From positions 1 to 24,256 of IMG/VR virus record IMGVR_UViG_3300042519_000942: 24,256 nucleotides of DNA; one strand, 5' to 3'. The notes beneath the pieces are model-generated. The model was not told where the DNA came from, searched no databases, and saw only the letters and a list, made by a program, of their open reading frames with translations. The position numbers and the translations under genes are program-made. Below, piece after piece: positions 3,443-7,684 of the stretch. The stretch comes from a virus. Position 1 is the first letter of the stretch; each line of letters opens with the position of its first letter.

Positions 3443-4711
3443 TTATTTACCTACGATGATGCTACGAAGTTCGGCAAAGTATTTGTTGGAGTGAGTTAGC
3501 GACATTTCGTTGTAAATCATATTCACATCGTCTTTGTCCATACCGCTTAACAATCCAATGTTTATTACATCTTTGAGTGTCCATTTTAATTGAGTTAAGT
3601 CACGGAGGTTAATAATTTCTCGGTAGGAAACAATCTTGCGTTGTCCAGTTTTCTTAACTCCATTACGGAAGGCACGGAGGAAAGCGAGTAACTCGTAGTC
3701 GGTAGTAAGTGAGTTTTCTATCATCTCACTGTAATCAATTTCGATTTGGATAAACCGATTAAGTGTTGCCCCGTCAAGTTGTTGTCTTGTGTTATACTCC
3801 GAAGTAGCACCTTGTCCAGTTGTGTTACCCGCTGCGATAACCTTAAAGTCCTTGTGTGCTTCCTTGTAACCATTTGGAAAAGTAAAGTAACCATTGGCGA
3901 GTGCTGCGTTGAGTAAAATCACAATTTCAGGATTTGAAGCATCTAACTCATCTAAGAAGTAAACACCGCCATCAGTAAACGATTTGTAGAATTGAGTTTC
4001 TTGGTATTTGCCCATTGCATCAATGAACCCTGTAAGTTGGTAGGGTTGTTGAACCGCATTGTCAAAGTAGAACTTCATTTCAAGTGCCTTGGCAACTTGC
4101 TTGGCGATTACGTTCTTACCACTTCCAGCAGGACCTCGTAAGTAAACCGCTTTGCCGATTTGAGTAAGTTGTAAAATCTTTTCAAATTGTTCGTGGACAG
4201 TTTCTTTCATCACAACCTTGTCAAGTATTTTCAATTCAACTTGTCGCTTGATTGTTCCATATTGCTCGGCAACTAACTTCTTAACTTGTTCCATTGCGTT
4301 TGCCGCAACTTGTGGTGCATATTGTTCAAGCATTACTTTGGCAAGTGCTTGTTCGATAAGTCCAAGTGTCATCGTGGATTGCGTCGGTGCGTCCTGTGCT
4401 CGTGTAGGTGTAGGAGTAGGAGTAGTAATCGGTGTAACTTCTTTCATAGTTGGTTGTTGTGTTCCTTTCTTAACCAAGTATTCTTTGATAGCAAACATAT
4501 CAAGGACTTTGTAAATGTCATCGGATTTCACATTTACAATTAACTCTTCGACAAGTGGTAATCCGAACTTGTCTATTGCTCGTTTGACAAGCGACTGTAT
4601 TGCCGGTGCCCCTCCACGATGGAAAGTTCCGTTCAGTGAGTTAAATCGTTTGACCAATTTTACGATTTGCTCATCGAACCCTTCCGTTGTCGTCTTTGCT
4701 TTGTCTTCCAT
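3443..4711 (-). CDS. MoxR/AAA_5-type AAA+ ATPase
   Basis: This 422-aa protein has an N-terminal helical domain (about 1-85), a Pro/Thr-rich linker (88-110) and an AAA+ core. Walker A is GPAGSGKN at 193-200, Walker B YFLDELD at 251-257, sensor 1 the Asn in VIAAGNT (N296), and an arginine-finger candidate R319 in ATLNRF. Asn replaces the usual Ser/Thr after the Walker A lysine; as I recall, this is normal in a phage/prophage branch of AAA_5 and does not by itself mean loss of ATPase. It is the first gene of the early operon: a near-perfect promoter lies 30-60 bp upstream, and AAAGGAGGG sits 6 nt before the ATG. The VWA-like partner follows after 2 nt. The target is unknown; remodelling of a replication or host complex is inferred. 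Confidence 0.85.
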   Translation of the reverse strand: MEDKAKTTTEGFDEQIVKLVKRFNSLNGTFHRGGAPAIQSLVKRAIDKFGLPLVEELIVNVKSDDIYKVLDMFAIKEYLVKKGTQQPTMKEVTPITTPTPTPTRAQDAPTQSTMTLGLIEQALAKVMLEQYAPQVAANAMEQVKKLVAEQYGTIKRQVELKILDKVVMKETVHEQFEKILQLTQIGKAVYLRGPAGSGKNVIAKQVAKALEMKFYFDNAVQQPYQLTGFIDAMGKYQETQFYKSFTDGGVYFLDELDASNPEIVILLNAALANGYFTFPNGYKEAHKDFKVIAAGNTTGQGATSEYNTRQQLDGATLNRFIQIEIDYSEMIENSLTTDYELLAFLRAFRNGVKKTGQRKIVSYREIINLRDLTQLKWTLKDVINIGLLSGMDKDDVNMIYNEMSLTHSNKYFAELRSIIVGK

Positions 4712-4742
4712 TTTTGACCCTCCTTTATATAGGTCTGTATAT

Positions 4743-4771
4743 ATATTATCATATGGTTAACATATTGTCAA
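4743..4771 (-). promoter_or_regulatory. Near-consensus sigma-70 promoter of the early operon
   Basis: Reading left: TTGACA (4766-4771), 17-bp spacer, TAATAT (4743-4748), about 32 bp before the ATPase start codon. It is the best promoter match seen on this strand. Two near-identical 10-mers, ATATGTTGAC (4768-4777) and ATATGTTAAC (4756-4765), lie 12 bp apart over the -35 and spacer, followed by CATAT that makes an ATATG/CATAT dyad. A repressor could bind there. Confidence 0.8.
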
Positions 4772-4787
4772 CATATATAAAAAAACC

Positions 4788-4807
4788 CGATATAATCGCA
4801 CTTTTTT
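4788..4807. repeat. 20-bp direct repeat, copy 1 (CGATATAATCG plus T-tract)
   Basis: CGATATAATCG followed by CAC and a T-run. It matches copy 2 at 4897-4916 at 19 of 20 positions, 109 bp away. CGAT/ATCG can pair, flanked by A-run and T-run, so each copy is also a weak hairpin. On the minus strand it ends in seven T, so it might stop transcripts coming from the membrane module before the early promoter. Confidence 0.7.
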
Positions 4808-4824
4808 AGCACTAAAAAAACACC

Positions 4825-4853
4825 ATTTTTACTCATTTTTACCCTATTTTTAC
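4825..4853. repeat. Three-unit tandem repeat ATTTTTAC (iteron-like)
   Basis: ATTTTTAC occurs at 4825-4832, 4835-4842 and 4846-4853, giving spacings of 10 and 11 bp, about one helical turn. Evenly phased short repeats in an AT-rich gap are typical of initiator-protein binding sites. A fourth degenerate unit (TTGTTTTAGC) follows. Confidence 0.6.
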
Positions 4854-4862
4854 CTTGTTTTA

Positions 4863-4883
4863 GCACTCCTATACACAGAGTGC
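4863..4883. repeat. Inverted repeat GCACTC/GAGTGC
   Basis: GCACTC (4863-4868), a 9-nt loop and GAGTGC (4878-4883) form a perfect 6-bp stem, the most GC-rich hairpin in the gap. No T-run follows on either strand, so it is not an intrinsic terminator. Confidence 0.55.
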
Positions 4884-4889
4884 CAGACC

Positions 4890-4916
4890 AAAAGTGCGAT
4901 ATAATCGGACTTTTTT
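4890..4916. repeat. 20-bp direct repeat, copy 2, within an 11-bp-arm imperfect palindrome
   Basis: Copy 2 of the repeat at 4788 is 4897-4916. It sits in a larger dyad: AAAAGT-G-CGAT (4890-4900), ATA, ATCG-G-ACTTTT (4904-4914), 10 of 11 arm positions pairing. T-runs close both sides, so it could act as a weak terminator in either direction or as a protein site. Confidence 0.65.
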
Positions 4917-5115
4917 GGTAACCCCAAATATCCGCATTTTATCGCATATATTTAACTATACGCAACTATACACAAAGTTCCACTATGTATACTTATGTAT
5001 AGTATGTATCATTTTCTATAAACTATATATATAAAAAAAATAGTATATAGTTGTAGAAAAACCCTACAAAGTATACACTACTATACACTAAATGAATTAC
5101 ACTACTTATGTTAAT

Positions 5116-5167
5116 CTATTGGCAAATGTAATGTAAAAGCATTAGTTTTGTATAACCTATTGGCAAA
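5116..5167. repeat. Direct repeat pair CTATTGGCAAA
   Basis: Identical 11-bp copies at 5116-5126 and 5157-5167, 41 bp apart, close to four helical turns, so a bound protein would sit on the same face. Confidence 0.65.
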
Positions 5168-5181
5168 AGTTTACTGCCTAT

Positions 5182-5216
5182 TATTCCTATAAAAAGGGGT
5201 AGTATATTCCTATAAA
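5182..5216. repeat. Direct repeat pair TATTCCTATAAA
   Basis: Identical 12-bp copies at 5182-5193 and 5205-5216, 23 bp apart. The second copy overlaps the dyad CCTATAAATAGG (5209-5220). Confidence 0.65.
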
Positions 5217-5228
5217 TAGGACTTCATA

Positions 5229-5272
5229 ACACTTTACGAACTCGTTTTGTGACATTTTTTACACTTTACGAA
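5229..5272. repeat. Direct repeat pair ACACTTTACGAA
   Basis: Identical 12-bp copies at 5229-5240 and 5261-5272, 32 bp apart, about three helical turns, directly after the last membrane gene. Confidence 0.65.
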
Positions 5273-5282
5273 ATCTGTTTTA

Positions 5283-6149
5283 TTATTCTTCTAATGGTTT
5301 GCCAAGTTCTTTTTCCAATTCGGTCATTATCTCTTTTGTTCTGTCGGTTATGTTAAGCAAAACTGCATACTTGTCTTCCAAGATAACTTCCTTGCCGAGT
5401 TTGACCCCATTAAAAGCACCCAAGGAAAACATAACTACTTTGTGAGCAAACATATAAACTGAAAGCCAAGTGAAGCCGTAACTCATTACAACGATTGAGG
5501 CATTGAAGAACGAGGTTATCATAGTTACCAAGAAAGGCATTGTTGAACGAGATAGACCTTCACGCCCTGCATCAAATGTATATTTTTCTCCCAAGCGTCT
5601 TACAACTTCGCCAAAACTAAATATATTGGCAAACTCTAATTTGTCGTATTTGATTTTAAGCGTATCAAGGTTAATCTTGCCTTTATAATCTGCCATCTTG
5701 TTTTTTTCAAGCAAAGGCATAAGTTCAAGTAAATCAAGTTTTATTTCGTTCCATTTTAATAATTCTTTGGCGTTCTTTGTTGTGCTTAATTTATTATCTA
5801 CGAAATCCATATAAGCGGAACACTTTGCTATCTTGTTGTGCTTTTCAATCTTTTCTCTAAACTCTTTATTAATCTTATTCTTGTAAATGATATTTCTATA
5901 CTTGTTTACGGAGTTAGTCATAAGTTGTATTTTTTCTTCTCCATTGCCAATGTCCATACCGACAGGGAAGTAAATGCTTCTTGCGACTACCCAATTCATA
6001 ACAGAAAATCCGAAATCAAACCAGTTAATTTGTGTAATATCAAAATTAACACTCATTAACATAGTCACAAACATCAAACCAAAAAGGAAAGATGTTAATG
6101 CTATTGTCAAAAAGGAAGTTGTTTTATTAACTCTTTTTAATTCGTTCAT
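5283..6149 (-). CDS. Membrane protein with paired N- and C-terminal membrane segments, unknown function
   Basis: This 288-aa protein has hydrophobic segments near the N-terminus (FLTIALTSFLFGLMFVTMLM and a second around FDFGFSVMNWVVA) and again after about residue 205 (FLVTMITSFFNASIVVMSYG, WLSVYMFAHKVVMFSLGAF). Between them is a charged helical region of some 120 residues (KYRNIIYKNKINKEFREK, KWNEIKLDLLELMPLLEKNK), probably cytoplasmic. I chose ATG 6149 over an in-frame TTG at 6161 because AGAGG abuts the TTG but lies 12 nt before the ATG. It overlaps the previous gene by 23 nt and is last in the operon. Function is not recognised: superinfection exclusion, lysis control or host membrane remodelling are all possible. 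Confidence 0.75.
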   Translation of the reverse strand: MNELKRVNKTTSFLTIALTSFLFGLMFVTMLMSVNFDITQINWFDFGFSVMNWVVARSIYFPVGMDIGNGEEKIQLMTNSVNKYRNIIYKNKINKEFREKIEKHNKIAKCSAYMDFVDNKLSTTKNAKELLKWNEIKLDLLELMPLLEKNKMADYKGKINLDTLKIKYDKLEFANIFSFGEVVRRLGEKYTFDAGREGLSRSTMPFLVTMITSFFNASIVVMSYGFTWLSVYMFAHKVVMFSLGAFNGVKLGKEVILEDKYAVLLNITDRTKEIMTELEKELGKPLEE

Positions 6150-6591
6150 TTTCTTTATCAACCTCTTTTATAATATTGCGTAATTTATATGCCTTGCTAT
6201 TTTGTATAAACTCTGGTAATGGATTTATAAACAACGCAAATGTTTGAAAGATAATAGAACCCATTAAAATAAGTTTTATCTTATCTATGTTCCGTGCTAT
6301 AATGCCTGACAAAAAATAAATAATAATCAATGGCAACACAACTTTAATTATTCCCATCAACACATTTTCTAAATATGCGTTAGGTAACGCTTTGGCAACG
6401 CTTGATAAAATATAATAAACACCACTAAAAACAATAACAATTATAATAATTCCCCAACCGCTTAATTTTTGTGATACAGTTTGCGTAGCACTAAAAAAAT
6501 CATATTGAGTTAGGATTAAAACCAGTGGTCCAACTATTGCCAGTAGAACCCAAGAGAGTAATCTAACAAAGAACCACGAGTTTGTTTTCAT
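6127..6591 (-). CDS. Four-helix integral membrane protein, holin candidate
   Basis: This 154-aa protein is very hydrophobic, with segments at about residues 8-28 (VRLLSWVLLAIVGPLVLIL), 45-65 (GWGIIIIVIVFSGVYYILSS), 78-100 (VLMGIIKVVLPLIIIYFLSG) and 106-122 (LILMGSIIFQTFALF). The C-terminal 25 residues are charged (NIIKEVDKENERIKKS), as in many holins. The start overlaps the previous stop as ATGA (6588-6591), with no clear ribosome site, so it is translationally coupled. Holin is inferred from size, topology and position after the tail genes. Four segments and 154 aa are larger than most holins, and no lysin gene is adjacent. Confidence 0.72.
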   Translation of the reverse strand: MKTNSWFFVRLLSWVLLAIVGPLVLILTQYDFFSATQTVSQKLSGWGIIIIVIVFSGVYYILSSVAKALPNAYLENVLMGIIKVVLPLIIIYFLSGIIARNIDKIKLILMGSIIFQTFALFINPLPEFIQNSKAYKLRNIIKEVDKENERIKKS

Positions 6592-7058
6592 AAGAACTTA
6601 ACTGGTTCTTCTAACGCTTGGACTACTTCTTGTTTTGCTTCTTCTTTTACTGCTTCTGTTTTGATTTCTTCCGCAACTTCTTGCTTTGCCGCTTCTAAAA
6701 TGTTTGTATCAATGTTTGCGATTTTAGTAATGTTGTTGATTAAAGCAAGTTTCGCTTGTGGGTCATTTTGTGATAACAACACAAGGCACTCAGCAAGGAT
6801 TTTTTCGTTTTGAGTAATTGTTGATAATTTGCTTTCGTATGATTTCAAACTTTCAGTAATAGTTGTTTTGACAGCATCTTTAACTGTTCCATCAACCCTT
6901 GATGCGATTTCTTTTGGCGTAGTTACGCTTTGAGTTTTGAACTTGTTATATATACCAACTGCCCAAGTCAAAGCACCGCCACTAACTATAAATTGTCCAA
7001 ACAAAGCGATTTTTTCGGCATTTACATTTTCTGTAAACCATTGTAAGATTTCGTCCAT
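6588..7058 (-). CDS. Single-pass membrane protein with helical tail, holin-like
   Basis: This 156-aa protein starts at ATG 7058 (MDEILQWFTENVNAEKIALF), with AAAGGAG seven nt upstream; the longer in-frame form from 7118 would only read back through the preceding gene. One hydrophobic segment lies at about residues 18-36 (ALFGQFIVSGGALTWAVGIY). The rest is predicted helical and ends in a Glu/Lys/Val-rich repeat region (EAAKQEVAEEIKTEAVKEEA). The layout of one membrane anchor plus a long coiled or amphipathic tail resembles small phage lysis or anchor proteins, but no family is recognised. It starts 2 nt after the previous stop codon and overlaps the next gene by 4 nt. Confidence 0.75.
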   Translation of the reverse strand: MDEILQWFTENVNAEKIALFGQFIVSGGALTWAVGIYNKFKTQSVTTPKEIASRVDGTVKDAVKTTITESLKSYESKLSTITQNEKILAECLVLLSQNDPQAKLALINNITKIANIDTNILEAAKQEVAEEIKTEAVKEEAKQEVVQALEEPVKFL

Positions 7059-7059
7059 A

Positions 7060-7311
7060 TTATTCTCCTTTGAGCAATTTAGCGATTGCTTCTCTTTCTT
7101 GATTAACTGCTTCTTCAATTTTTTTTAGCGTAATTTTGTATCCGTGTTCCGCTTCTTCAATCTTGTTTTGTAACATTATGATTTGTTGCCTAACTTGATG
7201 TAACACTTGTTCGATGTCCACAGGAACCCAATTTCTTCCATCGTAACCCAAAAGGTCGCCCTTCTTGGCGTTCTTAAACTCTTTGATTTTAACACCTAAT
7301 TGTTGTTCCAT
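7060..7311 (-). CDS. Small coiled-coil protein, possibly tail-fibre associated
   Basis: This 83-aa protein begins MEQQLGVKIKEFKNAKKGDL and has a short beta segment (GDLLGYDGRNWVPVD) then a heptad-like helix to the end (VRQQIIMLQNKIEEAEHGYK, KKIEEAVNQEREAIAKLL). GYDGRNWVPVD resembles the short modules that end phage fibre genes (compare NDGTWTTP in the fibre at 7686-8600). Start 7311 has GAGGTAAAT directly before it; the upstream in-frame start at 7362 would overlap the promoter. It is the first gene of the unit driven by the promoter at 7328-7357. A link between tail and membrane modules is inferred. Confidence 0.7.
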   Translation of the reverse strand: MEQQLGVKIKEFKNAKKGDLLGYDGRNWVPVDIEQVLHQVRQQIIMLQNKIEEAEHGYKITLKKIEEAVNQEREAIAKLLKGE

Positions 7312-7327
7312 ATTTACCTCTAAATAT

Positions 7328-7357
7328 ATTATACAATATGTGTTTGACTTTTTACAA
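7328..7357 (-). promoter_or_regulatory. Promoter of the membrane/lysis module
   Basis: Reading left: TTGTAA (7352-7357), 18-bp spacer, TATAAT (7328-7333), 17 bp before the start codon at 7311. The -10 is perfect and the -35 matches at four of six positions. It is back to back with the plus-strand small-RNA promoter, the two -35 elements being 2 bp apart, so one regulator could control both. Confidence 0.6.
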
Positions 7358-7373
7358 ACCATAATGCTATAAT
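7344..7373 (+). promoter_or_regulatory. Plus-strand promoter of a small RNA
   Basis: TTGACT (7344-7349), an 18-bp spacer and a perfect TATAAT (7368-7373). It is the only strong plus-strand promoter seen in the window, and a complete terminator follows 55-90 bp later, so the two define a short transcription unit. Confidence 0.72.
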
Positions 7374-7379
7374 GAGTTT

Positions 7380-7464
7380 ACAAGAAGAACCCTACCTTTC
7401 AGTTCTTCTTACCCCCTCCTGGGTCGCCCACTATATCTTGCTCGGTATAGTGGGTCTTTTTTTT
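7380..7464 (+). ncRNA. Candidate phage small RNA with an anti-Shine-Dalgarno loop
   Basis: The predicted transcript is about 85 nt, starting 7 nt after the -10. Hairpin 1 pairs AAGAAGAAC (7382-7390) with GTTCTTCTT (7402-7410), 9 perfect bp around loop CCTACCTTTCA. Hairpin 2 pairs ACCC (7411-7414) with GGGT (7421-7424) and presents CCTCCT (7415-7420), the exact complement of AGGAGG, in a six-base loop. Hairpin 3 is the terminator. The only plus-strand frame here begins inside the -10 and has no ribosome site, so the unit is best read as non-coding. It is antisense to the gap between the genes ending at 7463 and starting at 7311. An SD-binding regulatory RNA is inferred; a cis-antisense role on the membrane-module leader is the alternative. 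Confidence 0.66.
7426..7464 (+). terminator. Intrinsic terminator of the plus-strand small RNA
   Basis: GCCCACTATA (7426-7435), 10-nt loop and TATAGTGGGT (7446-7455) give ten pairs including one G-U, followed by C and eight T (7457-7464). The T-run lies on the plus strand, so it ends rightward transcription; on the minus strand no T-run follows the hairpin. Its T-tract overlaps the stop codon of the minus-strand gene at 7463. Confidence 0.85.
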
Positions 7465-7684
7465 ATTCTTGTTCTTTACTCGTTTTTTCTAATGCGAGTT
7501 TTCTTGCTTCTAAATCGGCAATATCTAATCTAATTTGTTTGCGTTGATTTATCAAAGAAACATAATCATAAGGTATTGCTTCTCCCATCAACTGTGCTTC
7601 AAAACATTTAATGATTTTATAATCATCGTGTTTTAACATATCTAATTTAGTCAAAAGATTAATAACAATTTCTGTATATTTCAT
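7463..7684 (-). CDS. Small hypothetical protein after the tail-fibre genes
   Basis: This 73-aa helical protein (MKYTEIVINLLTKLDMLKHD, then DIADLEARKLALEKTSKEQE) starts 1 nt after the fibre gene's TAA, with no good ribosome site, so translation is coupled. A charged C-terminal helix could form a coiled coil. Short proteins directly after fibre genes are often assembly chaperones, but there is no motif here to prove it. Confidence 0.65.
   Translation of the reverse strand: MKYTEIVINLLTKLDMLKHDDYKIIKCFEAQLMGEAIPYDYVSLINQRKQIRLDIADLEARKLALEKTSKEQE

Follow-up and report, generated by a model that had tools for sequence, protein, structure and literature searches.

The stretch of DNA analysed here (the window; 24,256 bp) is 99.97% identical to positions 4804-29059 of a 33,332-bp IMG/VR contig (G001, the parent contig). 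A second contig of 33,847 bp (G002) is 86-91% identical to G001 over most of its length. The phage is a gut-type bacteriophage with head, portal, terminase and putative tail genes, and it also carries a Sak4-like annealing protein, a CobS-like ATPase, a D5-type primase, two ParB-like genes and two PAPS-reductase-like genes. In named genomes, the portal has its best homologues in MAGs of Clostridia and Tenericutes (42-51% identity), which points to a low-GC bacterium of that kind, from gut or digester, as the probable host. Among the phage genes searched none was recognised as an endolysin, an absence that would fit a wall-less or unusual host.

A plus-strand unit between late genes

Apart from a single implausible 69-aa ORF, every called gene of the parent contig lies on the minus strand, which bears out the original prediction of a plus-strand unit in an otherwise minus-strand genome. 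The unit sits between two minus-strand genes, a 73-aa gene (7463-7684; phrog_17180-like, E 2.4e-13) and, downstream, an 84-aa late gene (7060-7314). Further downstream of this spacer (5283-7058) are three genes, two of them clearly with membrane-spanning stretches, for which no PHROG or Pfam match was found. Beyond these lies a 570-bp AT-rich non-coding gap (4712-5282). It holds GATATAATCG(C/G)ACTTTTTT twice, as well as a divergent promoter pair near 4768/4771, and may be an origin or control region.

The predicted promoter (7344-7373, plus strand) consists of TTGACT at 7344-7349, an 18-nt spacer and TATAAT at 7368-7373. We confirmed it as originally described and found in addition a TG before the −10, making it an extended −10 promoter. 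Its consensus score of 11/12 is the highest of 67 sigma-70-like sites in the first 20 kb, and when the 149-nt spacer was dinucleotide-shuffled 1000 times, only 5 of the shuffles gave an 11/12 site on either strand. Two promoters with this score are kept in G002, this one and one at G001 1451 that drives an early operon. With a start placed 7 nt after the −10, the promoter would yield a non-coding RNA of ~85 nt (7380-7464, plus strand), which holds no ATG and no coding potential. It would end at an intrinsic terminator (7426-7464) with a 12-bp stem (7426-7437/7444-7455), the loop UUGCUC, a C and the expected run of eight T (7457-7464), the tail of which touches the stop codon of the minus-strand gene at 7463-7684. 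The sequence thus predicts an independent non-coding transcript with its own promoter and terminator. Other readings of the spacer were rejected. The sole candidate for a small plus-strand protein, a 53-aa ORF, has its start within the −10 (7372), upstream of the predicted RNA start, and runs across the terminator. On the minus strand, AGGAGG is not followed by a start codon, as a Shine-Dalgarno (SD) sequence would be, and no T run is present to make a terminator.

The RNA is predicted to fold as hairpin, hairpin, terminator, a model backed by sequence selection (below). Its minimum free energy is −31.0 kcal/mol, against −14.8 ± 2.7 kcal/mol in shuffled sequences (z = −5.97; 0 of 200 as good), and it is the lowest-energy 86-nt fold among 3326 overlapping windows on both strands of the parent genome. 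Hairpin 1 (7382-7410) is the perfect 9-bp stem expected from the original prediction (7382-7390/7402-7410), and it closes an 11-nt loop, CCUACCUUUCA, at 7391-7401 with an unpaired probability of 0.97-1.0. The second predicted hairpin is present at 7411-7424 (ACCC at 7411-7414, CCUCCU at 7415-7420, GGGU at 7421-7424), but it is weak and its loop is partly paired: ACCC/GGGU around CCUCCU (6-nt loop) alternates with CCC/GGG around UCCU (4-nt loop), so that the first two C are unpaired only 55-59% of the time. The computed cost of opening the loops is 0.0-0.4 kcal/mol. The hairpin 2 loop, CCUCCU, is the complement of AGGAGG. The hairpin 1 loop (CCUACCUUUC) differs from the 16S tail CCUCCUUUC by one inserted A, a likeness absent from the original prediction, and both free loops resemble that 3′ tail. 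CCUCCU occurs in 17% of dinucleotide shuffles of this C-rich RNA and is by itself not improbable; the combination of promoter, fold, terminator and conservation exceeds chance.

Conservation and distribution of the RNA

Comparison of the window with G002 shows a single difference across the 74 hairpin positions, and it falls in the unpaired linker between hairpins 2 and 3; hairpin 1, hairpin 2 and the terminator stem and loop are identical. By comparison, the upstream spacer that includes the promoter differs at 10 of 67 positions (P=0.003 against the hairpins), and in the two flanking genes 28 of 159 third codon positions differ (P=0.0002). The promoter itself differs at 2 of 30 positions, both within its spacer. 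A rank test over windows of the whole genome places the RNA's 97% identity in the top 12%, which is not unique; this test is less impressive because conserved coding stretches compete, and the comparison with neutral-like sites is the fairer one. The selection test rests on two distinct RNA sequences only, the total in the data, and covariation is therefore not measurable. The comparison supports a discrete, predicted non-coding RNA gene conserved in two diverged phages with its hairpins, loops and promoter intact.

In two more distant relatives with the same gene order (G008 and G019), no spacer separates the tail gene from the gene after it, the two either overlapping or abutting; in G008 the overlap is between the homologue of the 84-aa gene and the tail gene before it, so that the RNA would not fit. 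The 73-aa gene is likewise absent from both and found only in the two RNA-carrying phages, with no match in the phage collection, and it is probably part of the RNA's insert. Since distant relatives have neither the RNA nor a gap at this site, both the RNA and the 73-aa gene seem to belong to an insert specific to this lineage, placed between late genes (an ‘RNA moron’). It had been reasoned that relatives keeping the minus-strand genes but lacking the RNA would count against the prediction. Such relatives were found only at a distance, with flanking genes ~30% identical, which argues for recent gain rather than lack of function.

A model of the RNA (R1) had no match in 48 related phage contigs, a DNA search of 50,697 phage records returned only promoter-like fragments, and a search by the hairpin 1 loop returned the two known contigs only. 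The pattern TATAAT-N(24-54)-CCCCTCCTGGG had 27 matches in viral contigs; the unit was among them only in the two known phages, and the remaining matches look coding or due to chance. Matches of R1 in 9 of 576 host genomes proved on inspection to be ordinary terminators or chance. In Rfam, no family matched the window at E<=1; for a 106-nt stretch the top bit score was that of ctRNA_pT181 (16.7 bits against a cut-off of 56, E=5.3), and no covariance-model match was found to 6C RNA, C4 antisense RNA or other Rfam families.

Proposed ribosome-site binding, candidate targets and rival explanations

Judged from the sequence and fold, an anti-SD function is probable for this phage sRNA gene. Our best reading, which we favour tentatively, is that it is a stand-alone gene for a trans-acting phage sRNA that covers SD sequences. 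Host RNA polymerase would transcribe the RNA from its vegetative-type promoter, against the other phage genes, and stop at the intrinsic terminator after ~85 nt. The two exposed C-rich loops would then pair in trans with AGGAGG-type SD sequences, keeping the 30S subunit off and lowering translation. Candidate targets would be the phage's early operons, AGGAGGG sites being present in some of them, or, just as possibly, abundant host mRNAs. The unit would have been inserted between late genes in this lineage together with the 73-aa gene.

Accessible loops complementary to the SD are indeed predicted, with computed pairing energies of −8.9 kcal/mol for loop 2 with AGGAGG and −11.0 kcal/mol for loop 1 with AGAAAGGAGG. 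The top phage candidate is an early gene outside the window (G001 1202-1402), whose SD region, CAGGAGGG, gives a net −10.0 kcal/mol; the best of 148 background windows for accessibility-corrected pairing is −7.3 kcal/mol. This SD region and both promoter hexamers of the gene are identical in G002. The gene itself has only 16 codons there (against 66) with an ATGA overlap into the next gene, and this first cistron of the early operon may be a leader peptide. The operon has the promoter TTGACT-N17-TATAAT and a leader, TTTAGACAGGAGGGTTTATATATG, identical in both phages. Two candidate sites within the window, both AGGAGG on the minus strand, are not above the control: the SD of the CobS-like ATPase gene (3443-4711; site at 4719-4724, net −5.8 kcal/mol) and that of a Cro/C1-type HTH gene (HTH_3; 2236-2469) starting at 2469 (site at 2477-2482, net −7.6 kcal/mol). 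In that control, 5 of 44 and 5 of 45 own ribosome sites scored −5 kcal/mol or lower, compared with 83 of 413 pooled from relatives lacking the RNA, several of which have stronger best pairing scores than the RNA's own phage. The top phage site at −10 kcal/mol is likewise equalled in phages without the RNA. Since the RNA complements its own phage's ribosome sites no better than those of RNA-less relatives, no target is established, and we dropped a specific phage target as unproven. A 12-nt complementarity of the terminator loop to another gene (G001 720-1205) was also set aside, being near chance and within coding sequence. Anti-SD-like loops of any kind complement ribosome sites generically, and the modelled pairings support an ability to bind SD sequences, not any particular target. 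Of the proposal that the RNA binds phage or host ribosome sites, then, the accessible loops are supported, and a particular target is not as yet.

The main rival, which we consider unlikely, is a cis-antisense RNA like lambda OOP that would pair over its full length with the opposite-strand late polycistronic mRNA. It would target the spacer between 7463-7684 and 7060-7314 and trigger RNase III cleavage, so that the tail genes would no longer be coupled to the membrane-protein (possibly lysis) genes downstream. The RNA lies wholly opposite the late operon and therefore has perfect 85-bp complementarity to it; it is similar in size to OOP (77 nt, RNase III) and, like it, has a promoter and terminator of its own, and C-rich loops on one strand with G-rich loops on the other would make good kissing partners. 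Such pairing, however, is kept automatically whatever the sequence, so an antisense role leaves the conservation of 73 of 74 nt amid changing flanks unexplained. The RNA also overlaps no start codon or SD: it is antisense to the late-operon spacer, touches only the stop codon of the gene at 7463-7684, and ends ~66 nt upstream of the next gene's start.

The same conservation bears on two further accounts. A functionless transcript would belong to a promoter-terminator pair that interferes with or insulates late transcription, or to a recent passenger that has not yet decayed. This would suit a lineage-specific insert known from only two sequences, whose 97% identity, in the top 12% of genome windows, is not unique; yet the flanks and promoter spacer have diverged where the hairpins have not, and an insulator needs no conserved loops, which makes this account distinctly unlikely. 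The hairpins are conserved whole, terminator loop included, which is more than a short seed needs and would suit a decoy or sponge for a protein, a host sRNA or an rRNA-related factor, or an RNA with a structural role, in each case without ribosome-site targeting. The RNA matches no Rfam family and resembles no known protein-binding RNA, and we regard this as the least likely of the explanations weighed here.

Similar RNAs in related phages and known systems

We scanned 2.08 Mb of portal-related phage DNA, a figure that counts some bases twice in overlapping loci, for intergenic units with a promoter of at least 10/12 and a terminator. After removal of repeated units, the scan yielded 26 promoter-terminator RNA units. 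CCUCCU occurs in 3 of the 26, against 0.25 expected from dinucleotide shuffles (P=0.0005, an optimistic value because the scan was set up after such cases had appeared in a looser first pass). GGAGG occurs in none, and other non-overlapping letter permutations of CCUCCU in 0 or 1 units. At locus L168 (G022; minus strand, 7846-7775), a 72-nt promoter-terminator RNA contains AUCACCUCCUUUCU, 14 nt identical to the 16S 3′ tail. The predicted fold leaves this stretch mostly unpaired, flanked by a 5′ hairpin and the terminator. None of the other sequences examined contains its 12-nt core, TCACCTCCTTTC, and on the other strand no ORF of at least 30 aa starts behind the motif. The suggested mimicry of the 16S 3′ end by the window RNA would involve a 6-nt match, or 9 nt with one inserted A, and is weaker than in L168. 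At L102 (minus strand, 13489-13376), the predicted fold comprises a hairpin, a hairpin with ACCUCCUAC in its loop and a terminator with UCCUCC in its loop; at L078 (minus strand, 3589-3478), CUCCUCCUUUU lies in a large predicted loop behind a 12/12 promoter. Apart from the motif, the four RNAs have no sequence in common, and a similarity search with the L168 and L102 RNAs found no homologues, only shared promoter sequence. Stand-alone RNA genes copying the 16S anti-SD may have arisen several times in this clade, with the window RNA, L168, L102 and L078 as cases. They would compete generally for SD sequences and shift translation towards phage mRNAs at the expense of the host's, or towards late mRNAs at the expense of early ones; we think this broader scenario unlikely.

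The related phages also contain RNA units of ~175-180 nt that start with GTAAGG behind near-consensus promoters (L102, minus strand 19320-19145; L105, minus strand from 8975; G021, minus strand 15175-14993). Those of L102 and L105 share the terminator GAAGGNAGTTGCAAATGCCTTC and had no credible match in Rfam.

The Firmicutes C-rich-loop sRNAs RsaE/RoxS, LhrC and IsrR bind SD regions through C-rich single-stranded motifs; they are chromosomal and differently built, and resemble the phage RNA in principle only. The 6C/B11 RNA of Actinobacteria, like the phage RNA, is short and pairs with G-rich ribosome sites through two C-rich loops; in mycobacteria it represses through these loops, either of which suffices in B11 (PMC10470900). 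It is a bacterial chromosomal RNA with C-runs in its loops, whereas the phage RNA has CCUCCU and CCUACCUUUC and no Rfam match. SmelA075 and SmelA099 of Rhizobiales likewise present an anti-SD motif, CCUCCUCCC, in each hairpin loop (PMC3927594), but they have three or four such hairpins, are multicopy and chromosomal, and no sequence similarity to the phage RNA was detected. Among phages, the c4 RNA of P1/P7, which presents complementary sequences in loops, and the sar RNA of P22 are short RNAs that block a ribosome site on phage mRNA (PMC12197685). Both are specific for ant mRNA, whereas the RNA described here carries generic anti-SD sequence, with no ant-like target identified and no Rfam match. 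Lambda OOP, a 77-nt phage RNA acting with RNase III, also has its own promoter and terminator and runs opposite to its neighbouring genes (PMC12197685); OOP overlaps the cII coding end, whereas the RNA described here lies in a spacer and overlaps coding sequence only at the terminator tail. The statement that no phage RNA of this layout had been described must thus be tempered by 6C/B11, SmelA075/SmelA099, c4 and sar as precedents, and for phage RNAs with anti-SD loops, our searches of the open-access literature found nothing closer.

Bacteria are known to have RNAs that act by blocking ribosome sites, and by analogy the RNA described here looks like a phage version. The ribosome-site-blocking RNAs known in phages come from a few E. 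coli and Salmonella phages, and each has a single target. If the favoured reading is true, a compact phage RNA with two generic anti-SD loops, together with unrelated RNAs carrying the same motif in relatives, would point to an RNA route of translation control during infection that is invisible to protein annotation.
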